Source: Rhodothermia bacterium
Lineage (GTDB): Bacteria > Bacteroidota > Rhodothermia > Rhodothermales > UBA2364
Assembly (NCBI GenBank): GCA_017303715.1
Contig: JAFLBZ010000006.1
Location: 62,001 to 126,000, forward strand
Reading direction: 5' to 3'
Length of the DNA stretch: 64,000 bases
The notes under the pieces: generated by a model
Database searches by the model: none
What the model saw: only the letters and a program-made list of their open reading frames with translations
What the model was told of the DNA's origin: nothing
Position numbers and translations under genes: made by a program
Part shown: positions 33,982 through 60,501 of the stretch, in pieces
How the letters are laid out: the number at the start of each line of letters is the position of its first letter
How positions within the stretch are numbered: the stretch's first letter is position 1

Positions 33982-34429
33982 GTGCCATAACGAGCGCTAT
34001 GGGTTAATCAGGCTTTCGCCATAATGGGGGCTACCAGAAAACCCAGCGCTGAAGCATGGGGTTAATTCCAAGCCGAAAAGCATTTGGCAACGCCGCTTGT
34101 CTGAATAGAGTCGCAAAGCAAGTAAAAACAATCCTAAATGGAAAATGAGTACCCAACAATAATGGCTCCCCGATCATCATCACAGAGACACAAATCCAAG
34201 TAAAACATTAAGGGTTATACAAAAAGCCGTTGAAAGAAAATCAGCGAAAACACTTTTTACACAACCTCGGTATATTTCTATCTTCAATCCGATGCTTTAT
34301 CACGTTAAGGCATCTATGTAGGGCAGTGAGATCGTGCATATGGTATCCCAAAACCACTTTTTTATGTCCGGTTTGCCCGATACTGACAGACATAACTTGG
34401 CAAGGTTACTAATGGGCATATCCCAAAGA

Positions 34430-44443: not shown

Positions 44444-45013
44444 ATGGATAATGATTATTTAGACAGCATAAGAAAACAATTCGGGTATTACAAAATGCTC
44501 GGCGACAAAACATTTTTGCAACTGAATGACGACAAGTTATTCTGGAAATATAATGACGACAGCAACAGTATTGCAACTATTGTAAAACACTTATGGGGAA
44601 ATATGCTTTCGCGTTGGACAGATTTTTTGACTTCGGATGGAGAGAAGGAATTTCGTGACAGGGATGCTGAATTTGAAAACGATATTAAAAACAGAGAAGA
44701 ACTTTTAGAAAGATGGAACGAAGGGTGGAGTTGTCTTTTCAATGCAATCAATGCTTTGACACCCAACGACCTTGACAAAATTATTTATATACGCAATCAA
44801 GGACACACCGTAACCGAAGCAATTAACCGACAACTTGCACATTATCCATATCATATTGGACAAATTGTTTTTTTAGGCAAAATGCTTGCTGAAAATGGAT
44901 GGACTTCATTATCAATACCAAAAGGAGACTCACAAGTTTATAACACGAACAAATTTTCAAAACCAAGGCAAAGGGGACACTTTACAGATGAATATATAAG
45001 TGATGAAAAATAA
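44444..45013 (+). CDS. DinB superfamily protein (DUF1572-like), cassette-borne
   Basis: A 189-residue four-helix protein: MDNDYLDSIRKQFGYYKMLG, DKLFWKYNDDSNSIATIVKHLWGNMLSRW (metal histidine in the K-H-L-x-G motif), then RWNEGWSCLFNAIN, and RQLAHYPYHIGQIVFLGKML (H-Y-x-Y-H-I-G-Q-I motif with two further histidines). It matches DUF1572, a DinB-like family of metal-dependent proteins with roles in thiol or stress chemistry that are mostly undefined. Codon use is A+T rich, unlike the surrounding genes. It lies between related flanking repeats and without operon partners, so it looks acquired on a small cassette. Typical length. Confidence 0.82.
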   Translation: MDNDYLDSIRKQFGYYKMLGDKTFLQLNDDKLFWKYNDDSNSIATIVKHLWGNMLSRWTDFLTSDGEKEFRDRDAEFENDIKNREELLERWNEGWSCLFNAINALTPNDLDKIIYIRNQGHTVTEAINRQLAHYPYHIGQIVFLGKMLAENGWTSLSIPKGDSQVYNTNKFSKPRQRGHFTDEYISDEK

Positions 45014-51221: not shown

Positions 51222-53336
51222 ATGACAGAACAAGCAATTCAGCATACTGAAAACCCATTGGATAGCGACATCCAGTGGTTAGAAGGAGTGGGGCCGCGCC
51301 GTGCCGAGGTCTTCCGAAAAGCTGGCGTCCACACGTTCAGAGATTTGTTTCGCTTCTTTCCGAGGCGTTATTTAGACCGCACGACGGTCACGCCCATCCA
51401 TCAGTTACAAGAAGGGTTATCAACCACCATTGTAGGGCGTGTGGTCTCGCAAAATATGATCGAAGCCGGTAAAAAACGGTTCGAGATGCAGGTGGAGGAT
51501 GAGTCAGGCGGGCGCGTAAACTGTGTTTGGTTCAATGGACATCAATGGGTACGGCGGTTGTTCATAAATGGCGAATTGGTAGCGCTACATGGTTCTCCGC
51601 AAAAATTTGGTCGGACTTTTTCGTTAACACATCCTGATTTCGACAAATTAGAAACCGAAAAAGCCTCGCTCACCACGGGACGTATCATTCCCTTGTATCC
51701 GGGCGGACAATCATGGGATAGGGTTGGATTAACCAATAAAGCCCTACGACATATTATTTATGGCCTATTTAAAAAATATGGCCTGCTTTTGGAAGAAAAC
51801 CTACCCGAATCCATTCGCAAAACGTATAACCTTATGGAAGGCCGTATTGCGCTACGGGCCATCCATTTTCCTAAATCGGAGGAAGAACGAGAGTTGGCCA
51901 TGCTCCGATTAAAGTTTGAAGAATTTTTTTTCCTTCAGTTGCTCTTGGCCACCACCCGACAACAGGTCAAGAAAACTGCCGATGGCTTGGTCTTTGAAGC
52001 GCCGGGAAAGTACTTCGAGCAGTTTACCCAAGCCGTACTACCCTTTACCCTCACCAATGCGCAGCTAAAAGCCATCTCGGATGTCCTCGTGGATACGCAC
52101 AGTGGCTATCCGATGAACCGTTTGGTGCAAGGTGATGTGGGCAGCGGGAAGACCGTTGTGGCCATAGCAGCCATGTTACACGCCATAGACAGCGGATACC
52201 AAGCCGCCTTTATGGCCCCAACCGAGATTTTGGCAGAACAACACTACCAAAGCCTATGCCGCTATTTGGAACCTCTGGGTCTAAAAGTACACCTCTTGGT
52301 GGGCGGACAACACAAAAAAAGACGAACCGAAATCCTGAATGATCTGGCCACAGGCGAAGCCCAAATTGCCGTTGGAACACACGCCATTATCGAAAATAAG
52401 GTTGTTTTTAAAGCACTTGGCATGGCAGTTGTGGACGAACAACACCGCTTTGGGGTGATGCAACGCGCCCGAATGTTCGACAAAGGACAACGGCCACATA
52501 TGTTGCTGATGACAGCCACACCGATTCCGCGCTCTTTGGCCATGACCTTATATGGAGATTTGGATGTGACCATCATGAACGAATTGCCCGCTAACCGGAA
52601 GCCGATCAAAACCCTCCTCCGTAATGAAGCCCGACGTGGCGAGGTCTATGAATTTATGCGTACAGAACTTCGCGCCGGACGACAAGCCTATGTGGTTTAC
52701 CCTTTGGTGGAAGAAAGTGAAAAACTAGATCTTAAAGACGCCGAAAATGGCTTTGAGCAGATTACGGAAGCCTTTCGACCCTATAAAGCCGGATTGGTGC
52801 ATGGTCGGATGTTGCCCTACGAGAAAGAGGAGGAAATGAAGCGTTTTAAAGACGGAGCATTGGACATTCTGGTGGCAACGACGGTGATAGAAGTAGGTGT
52901 GGATGTGCCCAATGCGTCTGTTATGGTTATTGAACATGCGGAGCGGTTTGGCCTGAGCCAGTTGCACCAGTTAAGAGGGCGCGTGGGACGTGGCACGGAG
53001 CAAAGTTATTGTATCCTCATGGCAGACTATAAGCAATCCGCCGAGGCCAAAACCCGCCTGGAGGTCATGGCCAGTACTACCGATGGCTTTGTGATTTCGG
53101 AAGAAGACCTCAAATTACGCGGCGCTGGGGATTTCTTCGGCACACGGCAAAGTGGCCTGCCAGACCTCAAAATTGCCAACATCACACAAGACGCAGACAT
53201 TTTGACCCGCGCTCGTGAGGCCGCTTTTGCCTTGATTGAGAACGATCCCCACCTCCGCATACCAGAAAACGAACTTACGCGCAATCACTTTCTCCGCTCC
53301 GCTCCAAAAAGCCTCGGCATGGCACGCATTGGCTAA
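51222..53336 (+). CDS. recG: ATP-dependent DNA helicase RecG
   Basis: A 704-residue superfamily 2 helicase that remodels stalled forks and Holliday junctions. An N-terminal helical piece (VGPRRAEVFRKAGVHTFRDLFRFFPRRYLD) leads to the wedge OB domain (TIVGRVVSQNM, GGRVNCVWFNGHQWV). The helicase motifs follow: Walker A VQGDVGSGKTVVA, DEQH (VVDEQHRFGVMQR), the TATPIPRSLAMTLYGDLD motif, and C-terminal DILVATTVIEVGVDVPNAS and QLRGRVGRGTEQSYC. The end is SLGMARIG. Length is typical. The 3' end is duplicated 5.3 kb downstream (58601-58659). Confidence 0.97.
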   Translation: MTEQAIQHTENPLDSDIQWLEGVGPRRAEVFRKAGVHTFRDLFRFFPRRYLDRTTVTPIHQLQEGLSTTIVGRVVSQNMIEAGKKRFEMQVEDESGGRVNCVWFNGHQWVRRLFINGELVALHGSPQKFGRTFSLTHPDFDKLETEKASLTTGRIIPLYPGGQSWDRVGLTNKALRHIIYGLFKKYGLLLEENLPESIRKTYNLMEGRIALRAIHFPKSEEERELAMLRLKFEEFFFLQLLLATTRQQVKKTADGLVFEAPGKYFEQFTQAVLPFTLTNAQLKAISDVLVDTHSGYPMNRLVQGDVGSGKTVVAIAAMLHAIDSGYQAAFMAPTEILAEQHYQSLCRYLEPLGLKVHLLVGGQHKKRRTEILNDLATGEAQIAVGTHAIIENKVVFKALGMAVVDEQHRFGVMQRARMFDKGQRPHMLLMTATPIPRSLAMTLYGDLDVTIMNELPANRKPIKTLLRNEARRGEVYEFMRTELRAGRQAYVVYPLVEESEKLDLKDAENGFEQITEAFRPYKAGLVHGRMLPYEKEEEMKRFKDGALDILVATTVIEVGVDVPNASVMVIEHAERFGLSQLHQLRGRVGRGTEQSYCILMADYKQSAEAKTRLEVMASTTDGFVISEEDLKLRGAGDFFGTRQSGLPDLKIANITQDADILTRAREAAFALIENDPHLRIPENELTRNHFLRSAPKSLGMARIG

Positions 53337-53369
53337 GCAAATCCCTGATGTTGTGGATTTAACCTTGGC
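53311..53369 (+). repeat. Direct repeat at the recG 3' end (left boundary of the island)
   Basis: This stretch covers the last recG codons (S-L-G-M-A-R-I-G-stop) and the next 33 bp. It is repeated at 58601-58659 in the same orientation; the first 30 bases match at 28 positions and the remaining 29 at about 20 or more. It resembles an attachment-site core placed at a gene end. Confidence 0.7.
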
Positions 53370-53689
53370 TATTGAGAGGCTAAAGAGATACCCACTTCCT
53401 CAAAAAGTCTCGAATTTGATGATGAAGACGGTTTCCCGTTCTAAGTGCTTAAAACCACCATCCCAAACTTAACGTTGGAATGATTGGAAAAATGCTTACC
53501 TGTTTAATTTTAGTCTCCGATTTTATCACTCCTAAAATAGGGTCAATTTCAATTTCTTTCTCAGGATAGACATAGAAAGGACTTTTATGTTGAAAAGGCA
53601 GTCTTTGCGTAATGATCATTTGTCAGTATTTCATTATAAGATTTTGACCTTCTGAAAATTATAGTGGAACTAAGCTCTTAAAACAAGCA
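53337..53689. other. Left end of the recG-linked island
   Basis: Between recG and the TonB receptor there is no intact gene. The stretch contains the right half of the recG repeat and the 56-codon receptor remnant (53449-53619); the rest shows nothing. Confidence 0.6.
53449..53619 (-). pseudogene. C-terminal remnant of a second TonB-dependent receptor
   Basis: The 56-codon frame on the minus strand contains HKSPFYVY, then DPILGVIKS, KIKQVSIFPIIPTLSLGW and a stop. The end of the intact receptor at 53690 reads HKNPFYVY, DPFLGTIQS, KIKQISIFPIIPTLSF, stop. About 28 of 46 positions agree and the stop is equivalent. The homology starts only at the HK of the last barrel strands, so the rest of the paralogue is missing. 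It is a leftover of a former tandem copy, not a functional protein. Confidence 0.8.
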
Positions 53690-55990
53690 TCAGAAGTAGA
53701 GCTTAAAACTTAAGGTTGGAATGATTGGAAAAATACTTATTTGTTTTATCTTGATTGGAGATTGTATCGTACCTAAGAAGGGATCTACTTCTTGATCTCC
53801 ACCATCTGTATAAACATAGAAAGGATTTTTATGGGAGTAAACATTATAGATACTTAGCATCGTCTCTCTTCTTTTTTCCTCAAACCTTCTACGAATGCCT
53901 ATATCTAAATGGTGTGTGGCAGGTAATCTGTAACCATTTTTTTCACTATATATTGTTATCCGCTCTCCATTGATGTAATAATATCCTATAGGAAAGGTAA
54001 TAGCTTGACCTGTTCCGTATGTCCAAGCCAGCGTATAAGTACGCTGATTTACATCTCGGCTCGCCACAATAGAAAAATTGTGCTTCCTATCATACCTATA
54101 CAAAAATGCTCTCCCTTCATTGAGTTCTATAAAGTTTCGTTTCGATTCAGAAAGTGTATATCCCAACCACCCTTGCCATTTGCCACCTCTCTTCTGTATA
54201 AACAACTCCATCCCTTTTGCTATTCCTGTACCTTGTACCACCCGATTTTGCCAATCATCTCCGTCAACGACAGAGACGCCTTCTTTATACTCTAAAAGAT
54301 GCTTCATCTCCTTGTGATAAATCTCAATGCTGATTTCCAACTTTTGCTTATTTGGAGAAAAGGTTTTGGCAATTCCCGCGCTTACTTGCAAGGCTTCTTG
54401 AGGTTTTATGCGTTTCGTACTTGGCACCCATAAATCAGTGGGGAGGCCTACACCACTATTACTTAATAAGTGGATAAATTGTTGGGTTGTTCCTATTGCA
54501 CCTTTTAAACTCCATTGCTTATTGAATAAATATCTGGTACTAAATCTGGGTTGGATTCGAGGATAACTTTTGCCTTCTACAACTGCCAAATCAGCTCGAA
54601 CCCCTATAATATTTTTCCATCTTTTTGTTGCACTCCATTCATCTTCTGCATAAATATAATTATCTAAAGCGTTTGTTTTTACTTGCTGTGTACTTCGGCT
54701 TTTTCCTTCACTAAATATTGAAATTTTTGGAATGAAATGTAAAAAAATGCCACCAAATCCATATTTTAGTATATGGGTTTGATTCCAAAAATATTCAAGA
54801 TCAGCTTTCAAGGAAACTTCTTTTATACCGGAAGAAAATAAAATTAAAGTATTGTTTTTATGACCGCTCTCATCAATTTGCAAAATAGAATTTTCAAGAT
54901 TAAAGTTATATTGACTATAAATAAAGCTTGAATTCATAAAGCTCTTATTGCTTAATACATGATTCCAACGCAGGGTGGTCGTTAAATTTCCCCAATTTAT
55001 TTCATTTTGTTCTTTTGAACCAAAACTCCCACTAATATAAGATTGCCCATAAACATCTTTTCCACCATATAGGCTAAAGTAAAAACGATTTTTTGTATCT
55101 TTAATATAATTTGTTTTAAAATTAAAATCGGTAAAATGATAGTTTAAATCAACGTTCTTAGTGATTGCTCCTACAACCCTCATCGCTGCAAATAGGACAT
55201 CGGCATAGGTTCTTCTTACAGTAAATAGAAAGGAGCTTTTACTCTTTTGAATGGGGCTTTCAATCATTATTTTAGAGGATATTAACCCAACTTCTGCGTT
55301 AATATTTCTTTTTTCCGCATTTCCTTCTTTCATTTGCAAATCAATTACCGAAGACAATCTTCCGCCATACCGAGCAGGTGCATTTCCTTTATAAACTTCA
55401 ATATGATTTAGAGCATCTGGATTAAAAACGGAAATAAAACCGAATAAGTGTTGGGCATTATATACGGTAGCACCATCTAAAAGCATTAGATTTTGGTCTG
55501 GACTTCCTCCCCGGACATGAAGCCCAGCTGTACCTTCATTACCGCCTTTGATACCGGGCATCCATTGTAAGGTTTTTAGCACATCCGCTTCACCTCCTAT
55601 GGTTGGCATATTACTGACGTCTTTTGGCTTTAGTAGGATAAATCCCATTTGTACTTGCTCTTCGATGGGTGTATCTGCGAATACCTCTACTTCCGATACA
55701 TTTGATTGCTCGTGTAGTTTAATAATAAGGGGCCTATTGGTTTGAGAAGTAACATTAATGGTTTCGGATTGGTAGCCGATGTAAGAAACCCTAATTTGCG
55801 TTGGCATTTTTCGCAATTGAATGCTGAAAAAGCCATAACGATTGGCACTTGCGCCATTAGCCTCGTTTATTTCTACTATATTAGCACCAATAAGGACTTC
55901 ATTGCTTTGTGCATCTTTAACATAACCTGAAAATGGTTGTGCATGGATAACACCAAAAAAAATTATGAAAATAAAAATGTATTTAATCAT
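53690..55990 (-). CDS. TonB-dependent outer membrane receptor with carboxypeptidase-like N-domain
   Basis: A 766-residue receptor. A signal peptide (YIFIFIIFFGVIHA) is followed by a CarboxypepD regulatory-like domain (FSGYVKDAQSNEVLIGANIV, RVSYIGYQSETINV), then a plug domain (GGEADVLKTLQWMPGIKGGNEGTAGLHVRGGSPDQ, then the NPDALNHIEVYKG motif and PARYGGRLSSVIDLQMKEG) and a 22-strand barrel ending in SFKLYF. It imports an unknown large or scarce solute across the outer membrane with TonB energy. It is not a typical SusC (shorter). Its first codons overlap the end of the DUF4249 gene by eight bases, a coupled pair. Codon usage is strongly A+T rich. Confidence 0.92.
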   Translation of the reverse strand: MIKYIFIFIIFFGVIHAQPFSGYVKDAQSNEVLIGANIVEINEANGASANRYGFFSIQLRKMPTQIRVSYIGYQSETINVTSQTNRPLIIKLHEQSNVSEVEVFADTPIEEQVQMGFILLKPKDVSNMPTIGGEADVLKTLQWMPGIKGGNEGTAGLHVRGGSPDQNLMLLDGATVYNAQHLFGFISVFNPDALNHIEVYKGNAPARYGGRLSSVIDLQMKEGNAEKRNINAEVGLISSKIMIESPIQKSKSSFLFTVRRTYADVLFAAMRVVGAITKNVDLNYHFTDFNFKTNYIKDTKNRFYFSLYGGKDVYGQSYISGSFGSKEQNEINWGNLTTTLRWNHVLSNKSFMNSSFIYSQYNFNLENSILQIDESGHKNNTLILFSSGIKEVSLKADLEYFWNQTHILKYGFGGIFLHFIPKISIFSEGKSRSTQQVKTNALDNYIYAEDEWSATKRWKNIIGVRADLAVVEGKSYPRIQPRFSTRYLFNKQWSLKGAIGTTQQFIHLLSNSGVGLPTDLWVPSTKRIKPQEALQVSAGIAKTFSPNKQKLEISIEIYHKEMKHLLEYKEGVSVVDGDDWQNRVVQGTGIAKGMELFIQKRGGKWQGWLGYTLSESKRNFIELNEGRAFLYRYDRKHNFSIVASRDVNQRTYTLAWTYGTGQAITFPIGYYYINGERITIYSEKNGYRLPATHHLDIGIRRRFEEKRRETMLSIYNVYSHKNPFYVYTDGGDQEVDPFLGTIQSPIKIKQISIFPIIPTLSFKLYF

Positions 55991-57179
55991 TCGTTTGTTT
56001 TAGAAAATAAACCGATATATTGTTGGATATATTCAGCGAAAAAATCGCATAAATTCCTTTTACTTTCCATTCAAGGTTAACTTCTTTTAAAAAATTTTGT
56101 GCGGTAAAGTATAGACGTATTTTATGCTCATTTAAGTACCAACCACCATTTAAGTTTGTAAAATCTTCCGTATTATCTTTTCGGATTTGACCAAAAAGTC
56201 TGCCATCAGATTCAAATTCCAAATGGCCTTCTGCATTGGGAAAATTAATAGTTTCTAAGTTGACAGTTTGCGAAAACCCATCCATTATTTTGTATTTTCC
56301 AGCAATAAGTGTTTCAGTAGGGATTGCATTCTTAGACCAATTAAACCTATTTACCCCTGTAAAAATTCCATAGCCATTTTCGATTTCTCCTTTAAAGGGT
56401 ATTGGCTCTGAAAGTAAGTTATATTGATGTTTTATTTGCTTGTTCTTATATAGAAGATAATTGTAAAATTGTTTTTCTATATGTAAAATTTCTATTTGAT
56501 ATTGAGAGCTTTCTGTCTCTATGCCATGTTTTATGTTAATTGACTTTATATCCTTGGGAATTTTTCCAGAAAATTGGTCGAGCCAATAATCACCCTGATT
56601 CTCCAAATATAGCAGTGAACTATATGTTTGTTCATTAACTTGTTGTTGTAATTCTGGATTTAGGATTTTAAAACCTATAGGACTATACTCGAAGTAATTT
56701 TCCCATGTATTTAAACTGCTTTCATACAATCTTACCTGGATATATATATCATCTTTTTTTGACTCTTGCCTGACTTCAAACTGGCCAAGTTCTTCGTTTG
56801 GTGTAATAGTAATGGGTGTTAGGCTTGGGAGTTGCCCAGTGGCACGAACTTGTGGGTATCCATTCGCTTGTATTTTTAAGGTATAGCTAATATTATGTTT
56901 GGGTAAATTCTGGTCTGACCAATAATACCCACCTCCTAAATGGTTTAATTGCCGAACGCTTCCATCGCTTCCATAGATAATAACTTCTGCATCTGCGATG
57001 TGGTTTGTGAGTTTTGTATCCGCAAAAGTGTTACTGTGTTGGAGTATTAATTTCCAAGTCTTACCTTCTTCAAAAACACAATAGACTACGGGTTTTTTTA
57101 TGGATACCGAAGATGAATCTATCTCGGAAATACAAGAAGAGAGAAAAAAGCCCAGAAACAGGAAGTAGATCTTAAACAT
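55983..57179 (-). CDS. DUF4249 family lipoprotein, receptor partner
   Basis: A 398-residue lipoprotein (KIYFLFLGFFLSSC, ATG at 57179; the frame extends upstream to 57233). The start VSIKKPVVYCVFEEGKTWKLILQHSNTF and the DAEVIIYGSDG, GGGYYWSDQNLPKHNISYTLKIQANGYP segments match DUF4249, a beta-sandwich family of Bacteroidota nearly always coded next to a TonB receptor, as here. Members are thought to sit on the outer membrane face and to help the receptor capture its ligand, but the ligand is unknown. The stop overlaps the receptor start. A 60-bp gap separates it from the upstream hypothetical lipoprotein gene, so the three probably form an operon. Confidence 0.85.
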   Translation of the reverse strand: MFKIYFLFLGFFLSSCISEIDSSSVSIKKPVVYCVFEEGKTWKLILQHSNTFADTKLTNHIADAEVIIYGSDGSVRQLNHLGGGYYWSDQNLPKHNISYTLKIQANGYPQVRATGQLPSLTPITITPNEELGQFEVRQESKKDDIYIQVRLYESSLNTWENYFEYSPIGFKILNPELQQQVNEQTYSSLLYLENQGDYWLDQFSGKIPKDIKSINIKHGIETESSQYQIEILHIEKQFYNYLLYKNKQIKHQYNLLSEPIPFKGEIENGYGIFTGVNRFNWSKNAIPTETLIAGKYKIMDGFSQTVNLETINFPNAEGHLEFESDGRLFGQIRKDNTEDFTNLNGGWYLNEHKIRLYFTAQNFLKEVNLEWKVKGIYAIFSLNISNNISVYFLKQTND

Positions 57180-57239
57180 AGAAGAAGGAAAGAGATAGCC
57201 GTTAAAGCAATGTTCAACGGCTATATATGACAATTAAAA

Positions 57240-58244
57240 TTAATTTACTATCTCGTTTGTAGCAAGTGTTGACCAATTACCCCCTATATCTTTAAATAGA
57301 ACACTATGCCTACTTCTTGGGTCATATCCAGCATCTCTTCGATCAGTTCTGGTATTGATATCTTTACACCCCACAGTTACAAAGTAACCATCTGGTATTT
57401 CATTGTTAGATGTATTTACAAAATAAGAATAAGGTGCGCATTGAGCTGAGGCTGCATAAGTACCAGTGGTAGTTTGTGAGTTAAATGATGAGCTACTTCC
57501 CCAAACCCTAACAAATAAATCAACATTTTTTTCTAATTCAGGCGGGACAAGATAATGCCCAAATCCATACCAAGTCCCATTGATTCGGGCTCTAGCTCCT
57601 GTAAATCCATAAGCTTGTCGGGTAAAATAGGTGGTTCCTAATGCTTGATTACCAAAACGAAAACTAAGCTCGTAACAAGTGCCATAAACACAACTCACTG
57701 GAAAATTAGATACTGGAAAATCAACAAATTGAAAATCTGAAGTCTTTGTTAGTTTAGATACAAGAGGGTTTTTCAATCTTATTAAGTGCAGTTGGTTTTC
57801 GTCATGGAGATTTGCAAAATAAAGACTCAGCTCTCTTTCCACTTCTTTCCCATCGGCGCCATAAAACAACTCTACTTCTGTTCCTTTAGGGGTGTGTTTC
57901 AGCACTTGCTCTTTTTGGAATTCTAACATCTCTGCTCCCACTTTTACCCGTCCTTTTTCGTCGAGAACACTAACCGTAAAAGGGTCAACTGCATGTTTTA
58001 GGCTTTGCCAAAGGGTTTCGTTTAGTTCAATGGTTCTTTTTTTACGAAGTTCATTTTGTGCTGCCTCTGCTTCCTCATCCGAGGCAAAACTTTGAAGTTC
58101 TTTTTGCCTTGCGCTTAGTTGTAAGGTGTAGGTTCTCCCATTTTCGTTAAAAGTTTCTACACGGCTTTCTGAAGGGCTGCTGTGTGGCGAATCACATCCA
58201 TTGAGTAGGATGGTCAAAGCCAAGAATGCGAAGAGTTTACGCAT
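57240..58244 (-). CDS. Uncharacterised lipoprotein, first gene of the receptor unit
   Basis: A 334-residue lipoprotein (FAFLALTILLNGC, cysteine 17). The first half is a charged, helix-prone region (SFASDEEAEAAQNELRKKRTIEL), then mixed alpha/beta (VDPFTVSVLDEKGRVKVGAEML). The second half is aromatic- and glycine-rich (FRFGNQALGTTYFTRQAYGFTGARARINGTWYGFGHY) with four cysteines in two pairs (CVYGTC; SAQC ... VGC), which could form disulfides in the periplasm. No family was recognised. It leads the DUF4249 and TonB receptor genes and has an unusual promoter region with palindrome and tandem repeats. It may be a ligand-binding or ligand-processing surface protein. Confidence 0.7.
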   Translation of the reverse strand: MRKLFAFLALTILLNGCDSPHSSPSESRVETFNENGRTYTLQLSARQKELQSFASDEEAEAAQNELRKKRTIELNETLWQSLKHAVDPFTVSVLDEKGRVKVGAEMLEFQKEQVLKHTPKGTEVELFYGADGKEVERELSLYFANLHDENQLHLIRLKNPLVSKLTKTSDFQFVDFPVSNFPVSCVYGTCYELSFRFGNQALGTTYFTRQAYGFTGARARINGTWYGFGHYLVPPELEKNVDLFVRVWGSSSSFNSQTTTGTYAASAQCAPYSYFVNTSNNEIPDGYFVTVGCKDINTRTDRRDAGYDPRSRHSVLFKDIGGNWSTLATNEIVN

Positions 58245-58274
58245 GGTGTTTGGTGTTGAAGTTGTTTATGTTTT

Positions 58275-58290
58275 TCAATTCATGAATTGA
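58275..58290. promoter_or_regulatory. Perfect 16-bp palindrome
   Basis: TCAATTCATGAATTGA is its own reverse complement. It lies 31 bp upstream of the start of the minus-strand lipoprotein gene and directly abuts the tandem repeat array, an operator-like position. Confidence 0.55.
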
Positions 58291-58370
58291 GGTGAATTGA
58301 GGTGAATTGAGGTGACTTGAGGTGAATTGAGGTGAATTGAGGTGAATTGAGGTGAATTGAGGTGAATTTA
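58283..58370. repeat. Tandem repeat array of GGTGAATTGA, about 8.8 copies
   Basis: The unit GGTGAATTGA (10 bp) is repeated without gaps from 58291 to 58370, preceded by a partial copy from 58283. Two copies differ: GGTGACTTGA at 58311 and GGTGAATTTA at 58361. The array lies 39-126 bp before the ATG at 58244 (minus). Confidence 0.9.
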
Positions 58371-58600
58371 AAGAATGACATGTGTTTTGTCAAGGGTTGT
58401 TTTATTTTTTTCTGTGTAAAGTTATTTAATTACTGTAAATACACTTAAAAGATTTGTTATTATGAGGAATAAAGTATAGTTTATTTCTTGTTTTAAGCCT
58501 ATAATTTCCAATTACTTATAGATAAATAATATTGAAATAAAACGTATTCATCTCGATAACTACTGGCAAGCAATCAATTATAAAAAGTAGGTTCCGCGAA

Positions 58601-58659
58601 GCCTCGGCATGGTACGCATTGGCTAAACAACTTTCTGATGTTCTGGATTTAGCTATGGC
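58601..58659 (+). repeat. Second copy of the recG 3' end (right boundary of the island)
   Basis: This is a diverged copy of 53311-53369. It still codes S-L-G-M-V-R-I-G-stop in the recG frame, then continues CTGATGTTCTGGATTT like the other copy. It has no recG body before it. Confidence 0.7.
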
Positions 58660-58780
58660 CACATAGAACCTTTAGCCTTTTCCAAAATCGTTTAGTGGCG
58701 GAACACGACACACCCGCGCAACGTTTTGATTTGGTTTTGATGCAGCCACCGGAAATACCCCGTTCCAAAGACAGTGCCTT

Positions 58781-59431
58781 ATGATAGCCCTCACCAAGTA
58801 TCTATTTTTATTTGTTTTAGTGATTCTAACTAATGGTTCTTCTTTACCACCTTCTGGATTTTCTGAAGAGATTCAGGATGCCTACGAGCGCAAAGACACG
58901 CTACGTTTACGCAAAGCCTTACAAGCGGCCACTACACAGTCCGAAAAGTTCTTGGCCATCTATCGGCTTTATCCTTTGACCTTGGACAAAAGCCTCCTTC
59001 GCAACATCCCAACCGAACTCAAGCAAAGTTCCGCAAGAGAATATGCCCTTTTGGCAGCACTTTGGAGTTACCGCATAAACGAAGACAAAAGTATTCTCAT
59101 TTCTGCGGGCATGAGAATCAATGGCCTTTTAGACAAAGCAAAAAGACTAAACCCGAACGAACCTGTGTATTTATTAGTGGATGGGCAAGGGCTGTTTTAT
59201 ATGCCAAGCGTGTTCGGGGGGAGCTACAACAAAGCTTTGGTGCGTTTTAGAACAGCTCGCGATGTGATTGTTCGTGAAAAACCCGCCGGACTCAGCCGCT
59301 TGGATGCCGAAACGTGGATTTGGTACACCCTGCAAAAACAAAAAGCGGCCAACGCGCAGACGTATAAACAGGAATTATTGGGAAGAGGATTGCCCCAAGT
59401 CTATCGCGAATTTTTACTTAGCCCACCATGA
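58781..59431 (+). CDS. Secreted helical protein of unknown function
   Basis: A 216-residue exported protein (signal YLFLFVLVILTNGSSLPP). The mature part is helical and TPR-like in feel: EIQDAYERKDTLRLRKALQAA, QSEKFLAIYRLYPLTLDKSLLRN, REYALLAALWSYRINEDKSILISAG, MRINGLLDKAKRLNPNEPVYLL and GSYNKALVRFRTARDVI. The G-S-Y-N-K-A-L segment resembles the end motif of Bacteroidota TPR proteins. It overlaps the glycosyltransferase gene by four bases (ATGA), so the two are translationally coupled. A role in the same cell-surface sugar or pigment pathway is possible, but not proven. Confidence 0.72.
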   Translation: MIALTKYLFLFVLVILTNGSSLPPSGFSEEIQDAYERKDTLRLRKALQAATTQSEKFLAIYRLYPLTLDKSLLRNIPTELKQSSAREYALLAALWSYRINEDKSILISAGMRINGLLDKAKRLNPNEPVYLLVDGQGLFYMPSVFGGSYNKALVRFRTARDVIVREKPAGLSRLDAETWIWYTLQKQKAANAQTYKQELLGRGLPQVYREFLLSPP

Positions 59432-60501
59432 TGTTTTTGCTTTGGGCTTTGGTTGCCGCCTATTGCGTCCTTTTTGTAAATGTGCTTGCCAATCATTTTT
59501 ACACCCGAAGAATCGCCCGACGCGCAAAGACAGCCCCAGAGGACTTACCTCGGATCTCGGTGGTTATTCCTGCTCGCAACGAAGCCACCAACCTATTGCG
59601 CTTATTGCCGTCCTTGCAGGCGCAAAACTATCCCCGCTTAGAGGTCTTGGTTTATGACGATGCCTCGGAGGACGAAACGTGGGAGGTTATTCAGCGATAT
59701 GCAACAAATAACTTGCGCGGCATTCGGGGCAATGGCCCTGCAAAAGGATGGTTGGGCAAGCCCCATGCGTTGTTTCAGGCATCAAAACAAGCAACTGGCG
59801 AGGTTTTAATATTTTTAGATGCCGATGCCTATTTGCTGCACCCTAATACCCTTTCGCTTCTTGTACGCCAGTTCGCCGCTTTACCCGAAAAAGCCTACTT
59901 AAGCGGACTGCCATTGTTGACGGGTGGAGGTTTAATATTGGTGAGTTTAGTCCCTTTCTTGGTCACATCCCTCTTGCCCATGAACCTGATGCGTTTGGCA
60001 CGTTTTAAAAGCCTGAGCATGATGAATGGGCAGTTCTGGATGATCCGCCGCAGGTTGTATGAAGCACTTCAGCCGCATGAATTTGCGAAAGACCGCATCC
60101 TTGAAGATGTAGAAATTGGACGCTATTTAAAAGGAAACCGTGTGATTCCCCATCTTGCGGATATAAAAAACCTGATCTCAGTTAGGATGTACGAGGACTT
60201 TAAGGAAGCGTGGCTTGGCTTCCGAAAAAACTTTTATTTGGTGGTTGGTGGCGGAAATCCCTTTTTATTTGGGCTTCTTTGGCTTTTTCTAACGGGGCTT
60301 CTGGTCGCTACGTGGTGGGTTTCGCCATGGTTTTTACTGGCAGGATTGGTGCTAAAAACCCTTGTAGATAAAATATCGGGTTTTCCGCTTTGGGTATCGC
60401 TTTGCACACCCATTTCTTTTGCTTGCCTTTCCGCATTGTTGTTAGACTCGGCGTTTTCGCATTGGACAGGGCGGATAACTTGGAAAGGCCGACACGTCTA
60501 A
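59428..60501 (+). CDS. Family 2 glycosyltransferase with membrane helices
   Basis: A 357-residue GT-A enzyme. An N-terminal membrane helix (LLWALVAAYCVLFVNVLA) precedes the catalytic domain: ISVVIPARNEATNLLRLLPSL, LEVLVYDDASEDET, the metal aspartates LIFLDADAYLL (D-x-D), and the later R-I-L-E-D-V-E-I-G-R segment. A C-terminal cluster of three or four helices ends the protein. The layout resembles CrtQ-like enzymes (glycosylation of carotenoid acids) and other membrane-linked GT2 proteins acting on lipid acceptors. No carotenoid genes are seen nearby. Its start overlaps the previous gene's stop. Confidence 0.88.
   Translation: MMFLLWALVAAYCVLFVNVLANHFYTRRIARRAKTAPEDLPRISVVIPARNEATNLLRLLPSLQAQNYPRLEVLVYDDASEDETWEVIQRYATNNLRGIRGNGPAKGWLGKPHALFQASKQATGEVLIFLDADAYLLHPNTLSLLVRQFAALPEKAYLSGLPLLTGGGLILVSLVPFLVTSLLPMNLMRLARFKSLSMMNGQFWMIRRRLYEALQPHEFAKDRILEDVEIGRYLKGNRVIPHLADIKNLISVRMYEDFKEAWLGFRKNFYLVVGGGNPFLFGLLWLFLTGLLVATWWVSPWFLLAGLVLKTLVDKISGFPLWVSLCTPISFACLSALLLDSAFSHWTGRITWKGRHV

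Follow-up and report, generated by a model that had tools for sequence, protein, structure and literature searches.

The data presented here suggest that a mosaic receptor operon next to recG in a Rhodothermia bacterium is held in place by homologous recombination and not by an integrase, having been captured beside recG and then had its interior displaced by other alleles; the probability of this reading is put at roughly 0.5. The operon lies in a 64,000-nucleotide stretch of DNA (assembly GCA_017303715.1, contig JAFLBZ010000006.1, positions 62,001 to 126,000 of the forward strand), which is called the window and to which all coordinates given without a prefix refer. On one side it is bounded by the end of recG and on the other by a truncated second recG 3' end, referred to as the scar. 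The locus was compared among three species of the genus, namely the one that carries the window (G000), G001 (Bacteroidetes bacterium UBA2364, a metagenome-assembled genome in which the repeat is perfect) and G002.

The 3' end of recG is repeated in the window

The recG gene itself is intact (51222-53336, plus strand) and encodes 704 amino acids with the Pfam domains RecG wedge, DEAD, Helicase_C and RecG_dom3_C; the product is 86-88% identical to those of G001 and G002. A first-pass annotation of the window had claimed that the end of recG and the 33 bp that follow it recur in a diverged form, and had proposed that the two repeats be aligned. The alignment bears the claim out. The left copy (53309-53369, plus strand), made up of the final 28 bp of recG and the next 33 bp, matches the right copy, the scar (58599-58659, plus strand), without gaps over 61 bp, of which 52 are identical, and the next-best match to the repeat in the window is 31/60. 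A search of the whole 4.35-Mb genome found these two copies only (E = 1.5e-52 for the query and 2.5e-13 for the second copy, with all remaining matches at E > 1). The chance expectation of the repeat is about 1e-13, which excludes a chance origin. The recG portion has one mismatch in 28 bp, which changes A to V in the translation, and the portion after the stop codon has 8 in 33 (p = 0.2 for the difference between coding and post-stop divergence).

The operon between the repeats

The approximately 5.2 kb between the two copies had been described as a receptor unit, and the Pfam matches agree with this and give its content as a minus-strand operon of three genes. The first gene encodes a putative lipoprotein of 334 amino acids (57240-58244) that has a lipobox-like LLNGC in its translation and no Pfam match. 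This is followed by the gene for a DUF4249 protein of 398 amino acids (55983-57179; PF14054, E 1.1e-19), and the last gene encodes a TonB-dependent receptor of 766 amino acids, receptor B (53690-55990; CarbopepD_reg_2, Plug and TonB_dep_Rec_b-barrel). The receptor and DUF4249 genes are adjacent on one strand both here and in G001. Judging from these protein families, the operon's likely product is an uptake complex of the outer membrane. DUF4249 proteins have been proposed as partners of TonB transporters, as for BT2172/BT2173 (PMC11003636). The window operon is like that operon type in its conserved pairing of neighbouring genes for a TonB-dependent transporter and a DUF4249 protein, for which joint action was proposed, but differs in that a variable lipoprotein heads it and in that its gene set appears to be the product of a mosaic exchange across species. 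An AlphaFold2 model of the lipoprotein, built on a two-sequence alignment, had a mean pLDDT of 31, too low for the fold to be read.

Three features of the region were absent from the first-pass annotation: a 142-bp receptor stub, a 10-bp array of 8.6 copies and a 101-bp copy of another gene's end. The stub (53448-53589, minus strand) holds about 47 codons, without a start, from the 3' end of the gene for a displaced receptor, receptor A. The array (58283-58368; 10-bp unit TTCACCTCAA on the operon strand, TRF score 165) sits in the operon leader, which in G001 holds two units. TTGACA at 58388-58393 on the minus strand is a candidate -35 element of the operon promoter by resemblance to the consensus only, and is kept in all four aligned leaders. 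The leader and the 5' end of the lipoprotein gene together make up a conserved 5' anchor (57831-58307, minus strand) with 84.9% DNA identity to G001.

Arrays of this kind, with the unit TTCAYCTCAA just downstream of TTGACA, were seen both in the window (58283-58393) and elsewhere (L069:9205-9235; L180:2966-3025; L181:6676-6732). Those in G001 and G002 precede small genes that would encode peptides similar to double-glycine leader peptides (MKTLTLDQ...SLQVTGGE) and that adjoin genes for predicted membrane proteins. The array was found in 3/3 congeners and in 0/3 other genomes searched, and it may be a shared regulatory leader.

The interior had also been called A+T rich, and this is confirmed: the G+C content is 35.4% from 53.37 to 58.60 kb against 50% in recG, and GC3 is 0.28-0.29 in all three operon genes against 0.53 in recG, 0.46 in the gene at 58781 and 0.51 in the gene at 59428. 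The lipoprotein is present in a single copy in its own genome, which rules out a multi-copy family of the island there. The plasmid and phage collections held no match to the lipoprotein, and carriage on known plasmids or phages was rejected on that basis.

The recG locus in related species

In G001, a complete operon of the same kind and orientation comes after recG, with a second recG 3' end behind it. The G001 operon is likewise A+T rich (36% G+C). GC3 of the operon is 0.28-0.30 across both species and that of recG 0.53-0.55, so that the operon composition looks foreign-like in each. In G002, recG is followed by the last 117 receptor codons only and then by unrelated sequence, with neither a lipoprotein gene nor a second recG end at the locus. 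Both congeners thus carry the operon or a truncated tail of it after recG, which means that it is not private to one genome; as far as this comparison reaches, an operon at recG is a feature of the genus. Among the recG loci of other families, most of which had about 1.5 kb of flank only, there was no strong match to an adjacent receptor. A genome of a distant family (G025) does have a receptor and a lipoprotein of these kinds 0.5 kb apart (42% and 33% amino acid identity), which suggests an old operon type, whatever the mobility of its alleles.

These results bear on the earlier description of the region as an acquired island. The contrast in composition stands, but the notion that the operon is private to its own genome does not hold, since a complete operon follows recG in G001 and a truncated one in G002. 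A receptor unit of normal composition in relatives would have spoken against acquisition; the relatives do have the unit at this place, but its composition is not normal. An empty site, in which recG lacks the operon, was not found in the two congeners, and the suggestion that recG would there be followed directly by the 58781 gene failed, as the congener homologue of that gene follows another gene on another contig.

Edges of the second recG ends

Each second recG copy matches the recG of its own species alone, at 85% in the window and at 100% over 214 bp in G001. The left edges differ, with 28 bp of recG before the end of the stop codon in the window and 191 bp in G001, whereas the right edges are similar, 33 bp past the recG stop in the window and 23 bp past it in G001. 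The distance from leader to scar is also similar in both (about 190-210 bp), but the spacers that fill it are unrelated, their alignment score being no better than that of shuffles. The differing left edges and unrelated spacers suggest that the two junctions were made separately. The scars would thus be lineage-specific and have variable left edges, unlike an att core, although erosion of the window copy is a possible alternative.

A site-specific recombinase would produce one core. The first-pass annotation had seen no integrase, and the Pfam scan agrees: the operon genes and their listed neighbours, scanned between 44.4 and 62.5 kb, gave no integrase domain. The window showed no tRNA gene or known RNA, and attachment to one was rejected. 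The further proposal that the repeats are the att-type boundaries of an island was not upheld, given that the left edges differ, that the copies match their own recG and that no integrase or tRNA gene is near.

A mosaic interior

The recG genes of the window and G001 share 76% identity over aligned codons, 38% at fourfold sites and 73.5% across the recG DNA block. The leader and lipoprotein codons 1-139 are closer than this, at about 85-87% identity and 70% at fourfold sites. Past lipoprotein residue 139, identity to G001 drops sharply; the C-terminus is 35% identical at the amino acid level, the DUF4249 protein is 29% identical to its counterpart and receptor B is 56% identical to receptor A of G001. 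The stub, however, matches the 3' end of the recG-adjacent receptor A gene of G001 and G002 at 89% identity and the end of receptor B at 73%, and the two congeners' receptor A tails diverge from each other about as much as the stub does from them. The stub and these tails together suggest that receptor A was formerly present here and that set B later replaced it. A-type sequence also appears, from these identities, to have been transferred between lineages after their split.

The locus has two features of homology-anchored displacement, a conserved anchor with a sharp switch and an orphan 3' end of the displaced gene, and it is a mildly unusual case of recombination-driven mosaicism. From the protein families, the exchanged parts are inferred to be the ligand-binding parts that set ligand specificity. 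Elsewhere in the window, a DUF1572/DinB-like gene (44444-45013) lies in a stretch of 35% G+C and its DNA is 81-84% identical to both congeners, compared with the usual 71-75%. This suggests another recently exchanged gene.

The right flank

After 8 bp, the right recG copy gives way to a duplicate of the final 101 bp of a gene for a 236-amino-acid protein (58668-58768, plus strand), which is 84% identical to the intact gene on contig C19 of the same genome (L171:10426-11136). The counterpart of this gene in G001 and G002 is intact and stands immediately before the homologue of the 58781 gene. The right-flank genes, for a 216-amino-acid protein and a family 2 glycosyltransferase (58781-60501, plus strand), have their homologues on G002 contig C21 and G001 contig C111, away from recG. 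Judged by this gene order, the right flank of the window is a rearranged junction. The 101-bp copy has a signature like that of recG, a gene end copied while the intact gene is elsewhere, and a second copied gene end at the junction suggests that such junctions formed repeatedly in this lineage. Synteny between the species is broken up into reordered blocks a few kb long, so a breakpoint beside the operon is not special in itself.

A dispersed repeat of about 100-250 bp with the motif CATGGGGTTAA and small hairpins, REP-like by eye, was seen at several sites (window 34035-34139; C6:128328-128501; L179:5888-6290; L171:7620-7713; C6:38353-38602). At least three copies lie at the edges of synteny blocks with G001 or G002, and the repeat may be involved in the frequent rearrangements. 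In G002, the receptor gene is interrupted at L070:11180-11463 by sequence that starts with GGGGTGCATTTCAAAA and has the end of a short frame, MSNWEQVIKLLMQKADNF, by eye; this is possibly the remnant of an insertion sequence.

Discussion

The favoured model has two steps. In the first, DNA that carries the operon joined beforehand to a recG 3' end would enter a related strain, where the incoming recG end would pair with the resident recG. That incoming DNA brought its own recG end was also considered in the first-pass annotation, and this idea stands up. Capture would take either a homologous junction paired with an illegitimate one or a single crossover with a circularised fragment, and each route would yield an intact recG, then the operon and then a truncated second recG end, that is, a partial duplication of variable length such as the 61 bp of the window and the 214 bp of G001. 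The left edge of the scar would be arbitrary, as with the 28 bp of recG in the window and the 191 bp in G001, and its right edge would mark the point at which chromosomes with the operon part from those without it (33 and 23 bp past the stop codon). The operon would keep landing at one place because the guiding homology is recG. Both copies in the window come from one lineage and the donor strain is assumed; no donor, operon-free recG flank or excised circle was found among the three species. In the second step, for which the pattern is visible and the mechanism is proposed, other alleles would displace the interior, with the leader and the lipoprotein 5' end serving as the anchor. Receptor A, the DUF4249 protein that goes with it and the C-terminus of the lipoprotein would have given way to set B, with the 3' stub of A left beside recG. 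It is also conceivable, though unlikely, that the operon is a recombinase-free mobile cassette that loops out via its two recG ends and lands again at recG elsewhere, with recG homology targeting it throughout the genus.

Both steps have precedents. In E. coli, single-crossover capture left a partial gene-end duplication in 56/60 recombinants, of 109-950 bp in the sequenced clones (PMC3240628). Such capture and homology-facilitated illegitimate recombination (PMC3240628; PMC2884548) share one-sided homology and a partial gene-end duplication with the present locus; however, those are known from laboratory selections, whereas here capture is inferred from natural scars in two species, both at recG. 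Displacement that leaves orphan gene remnants has also been proposed (PMC5361080). As in the sequential displacement of T6SS effector-immunity modules in Vibrio cholerae, and in that of Rhs C-termini, there is a conserved upstream anchor, a replaced downstream part and a remnant, though the unit here is a receptor, DUF4249 and lipoprotein module and not a toxin-immunity pair, and there is one remnant (PMC5361080). The H47 island of E. coli (PMC5426353) also has no recombinase of its own and is flanked by extensive imperfect direct repeats. Its cargo is unrelated, and its excision was demonstrated by PCR and is RecA-independent, whereas the window locus is known from sequence alone.

The main rival to homology-guided capture is an intragenomic tandem duplication in each lineage, spanning the recG 3' end and the operon, followed by deletion of the second operon with its recG end left behind. 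It needs no donor, it accounts for second copies that match their own recG, perfectly so in G001, and it suits a genus in which gene order is heavily shuffled. However, the sequence to the right of each scar shows no remnant of a second operon, and two deletions would have had to stop independently within a few dozen bases of the operon boundary. Duplication also leaves unexplained that the operon ends are more similar across species than the core genome is. This course of events is somewhat unlikely. A single insertion and scar in the ancestor of the genus, with the G001 copy later homogenised by gene conversion, the window copy eroded and the G002 copy lost, would explain why order, orientation and the leader-to-scar distance of about 190-210 bp are alike in two species. 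The differing left edges, and spacers that are unrelated although the adjoining leaders still align, make a single origin improbable.

The decayed integrase-type island with att sites in the recG 3' end, which was the initial reading, is doubtful to a similar degree. Integrase islands at gene 3' ends do have direct repeats of the gene end beside an intact gene, and the cargo here is A+T rich. The window locus differs from them in its variable left edges and in having no integrase or tRNA gene in view and no common core; the G001 repeat is 214 bp and perfect, not a short shared core, the cargo ends and the neighbouring junction with its second copied gene end point to homology-driven exchange, and the plasmid and phage collections lack the lipoprotein. 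A perfect 214-bp repeat in a metagenome-assembled genome could also raise the suspicion of an assembly artefact. This is very improbable, since the window copy is 15% diverged and so does not represent misjoined recG reads, and the pattern is present in two separately assembled genomes.

Direct repeats of gene 3' ends are routinely read as the attachment sites of integrase-borne elements. This locus offers an alternative, in that such repeats can be scars of homology-guided capture, the marks of which are variable left edges, lineage-specific copies and no recombinase. Additionally, the architecture of a constant anchor and a swapped interior, known from toxin loci, is found here in an uptake operon, where an interior swap would be a means of changing ligand specificity.
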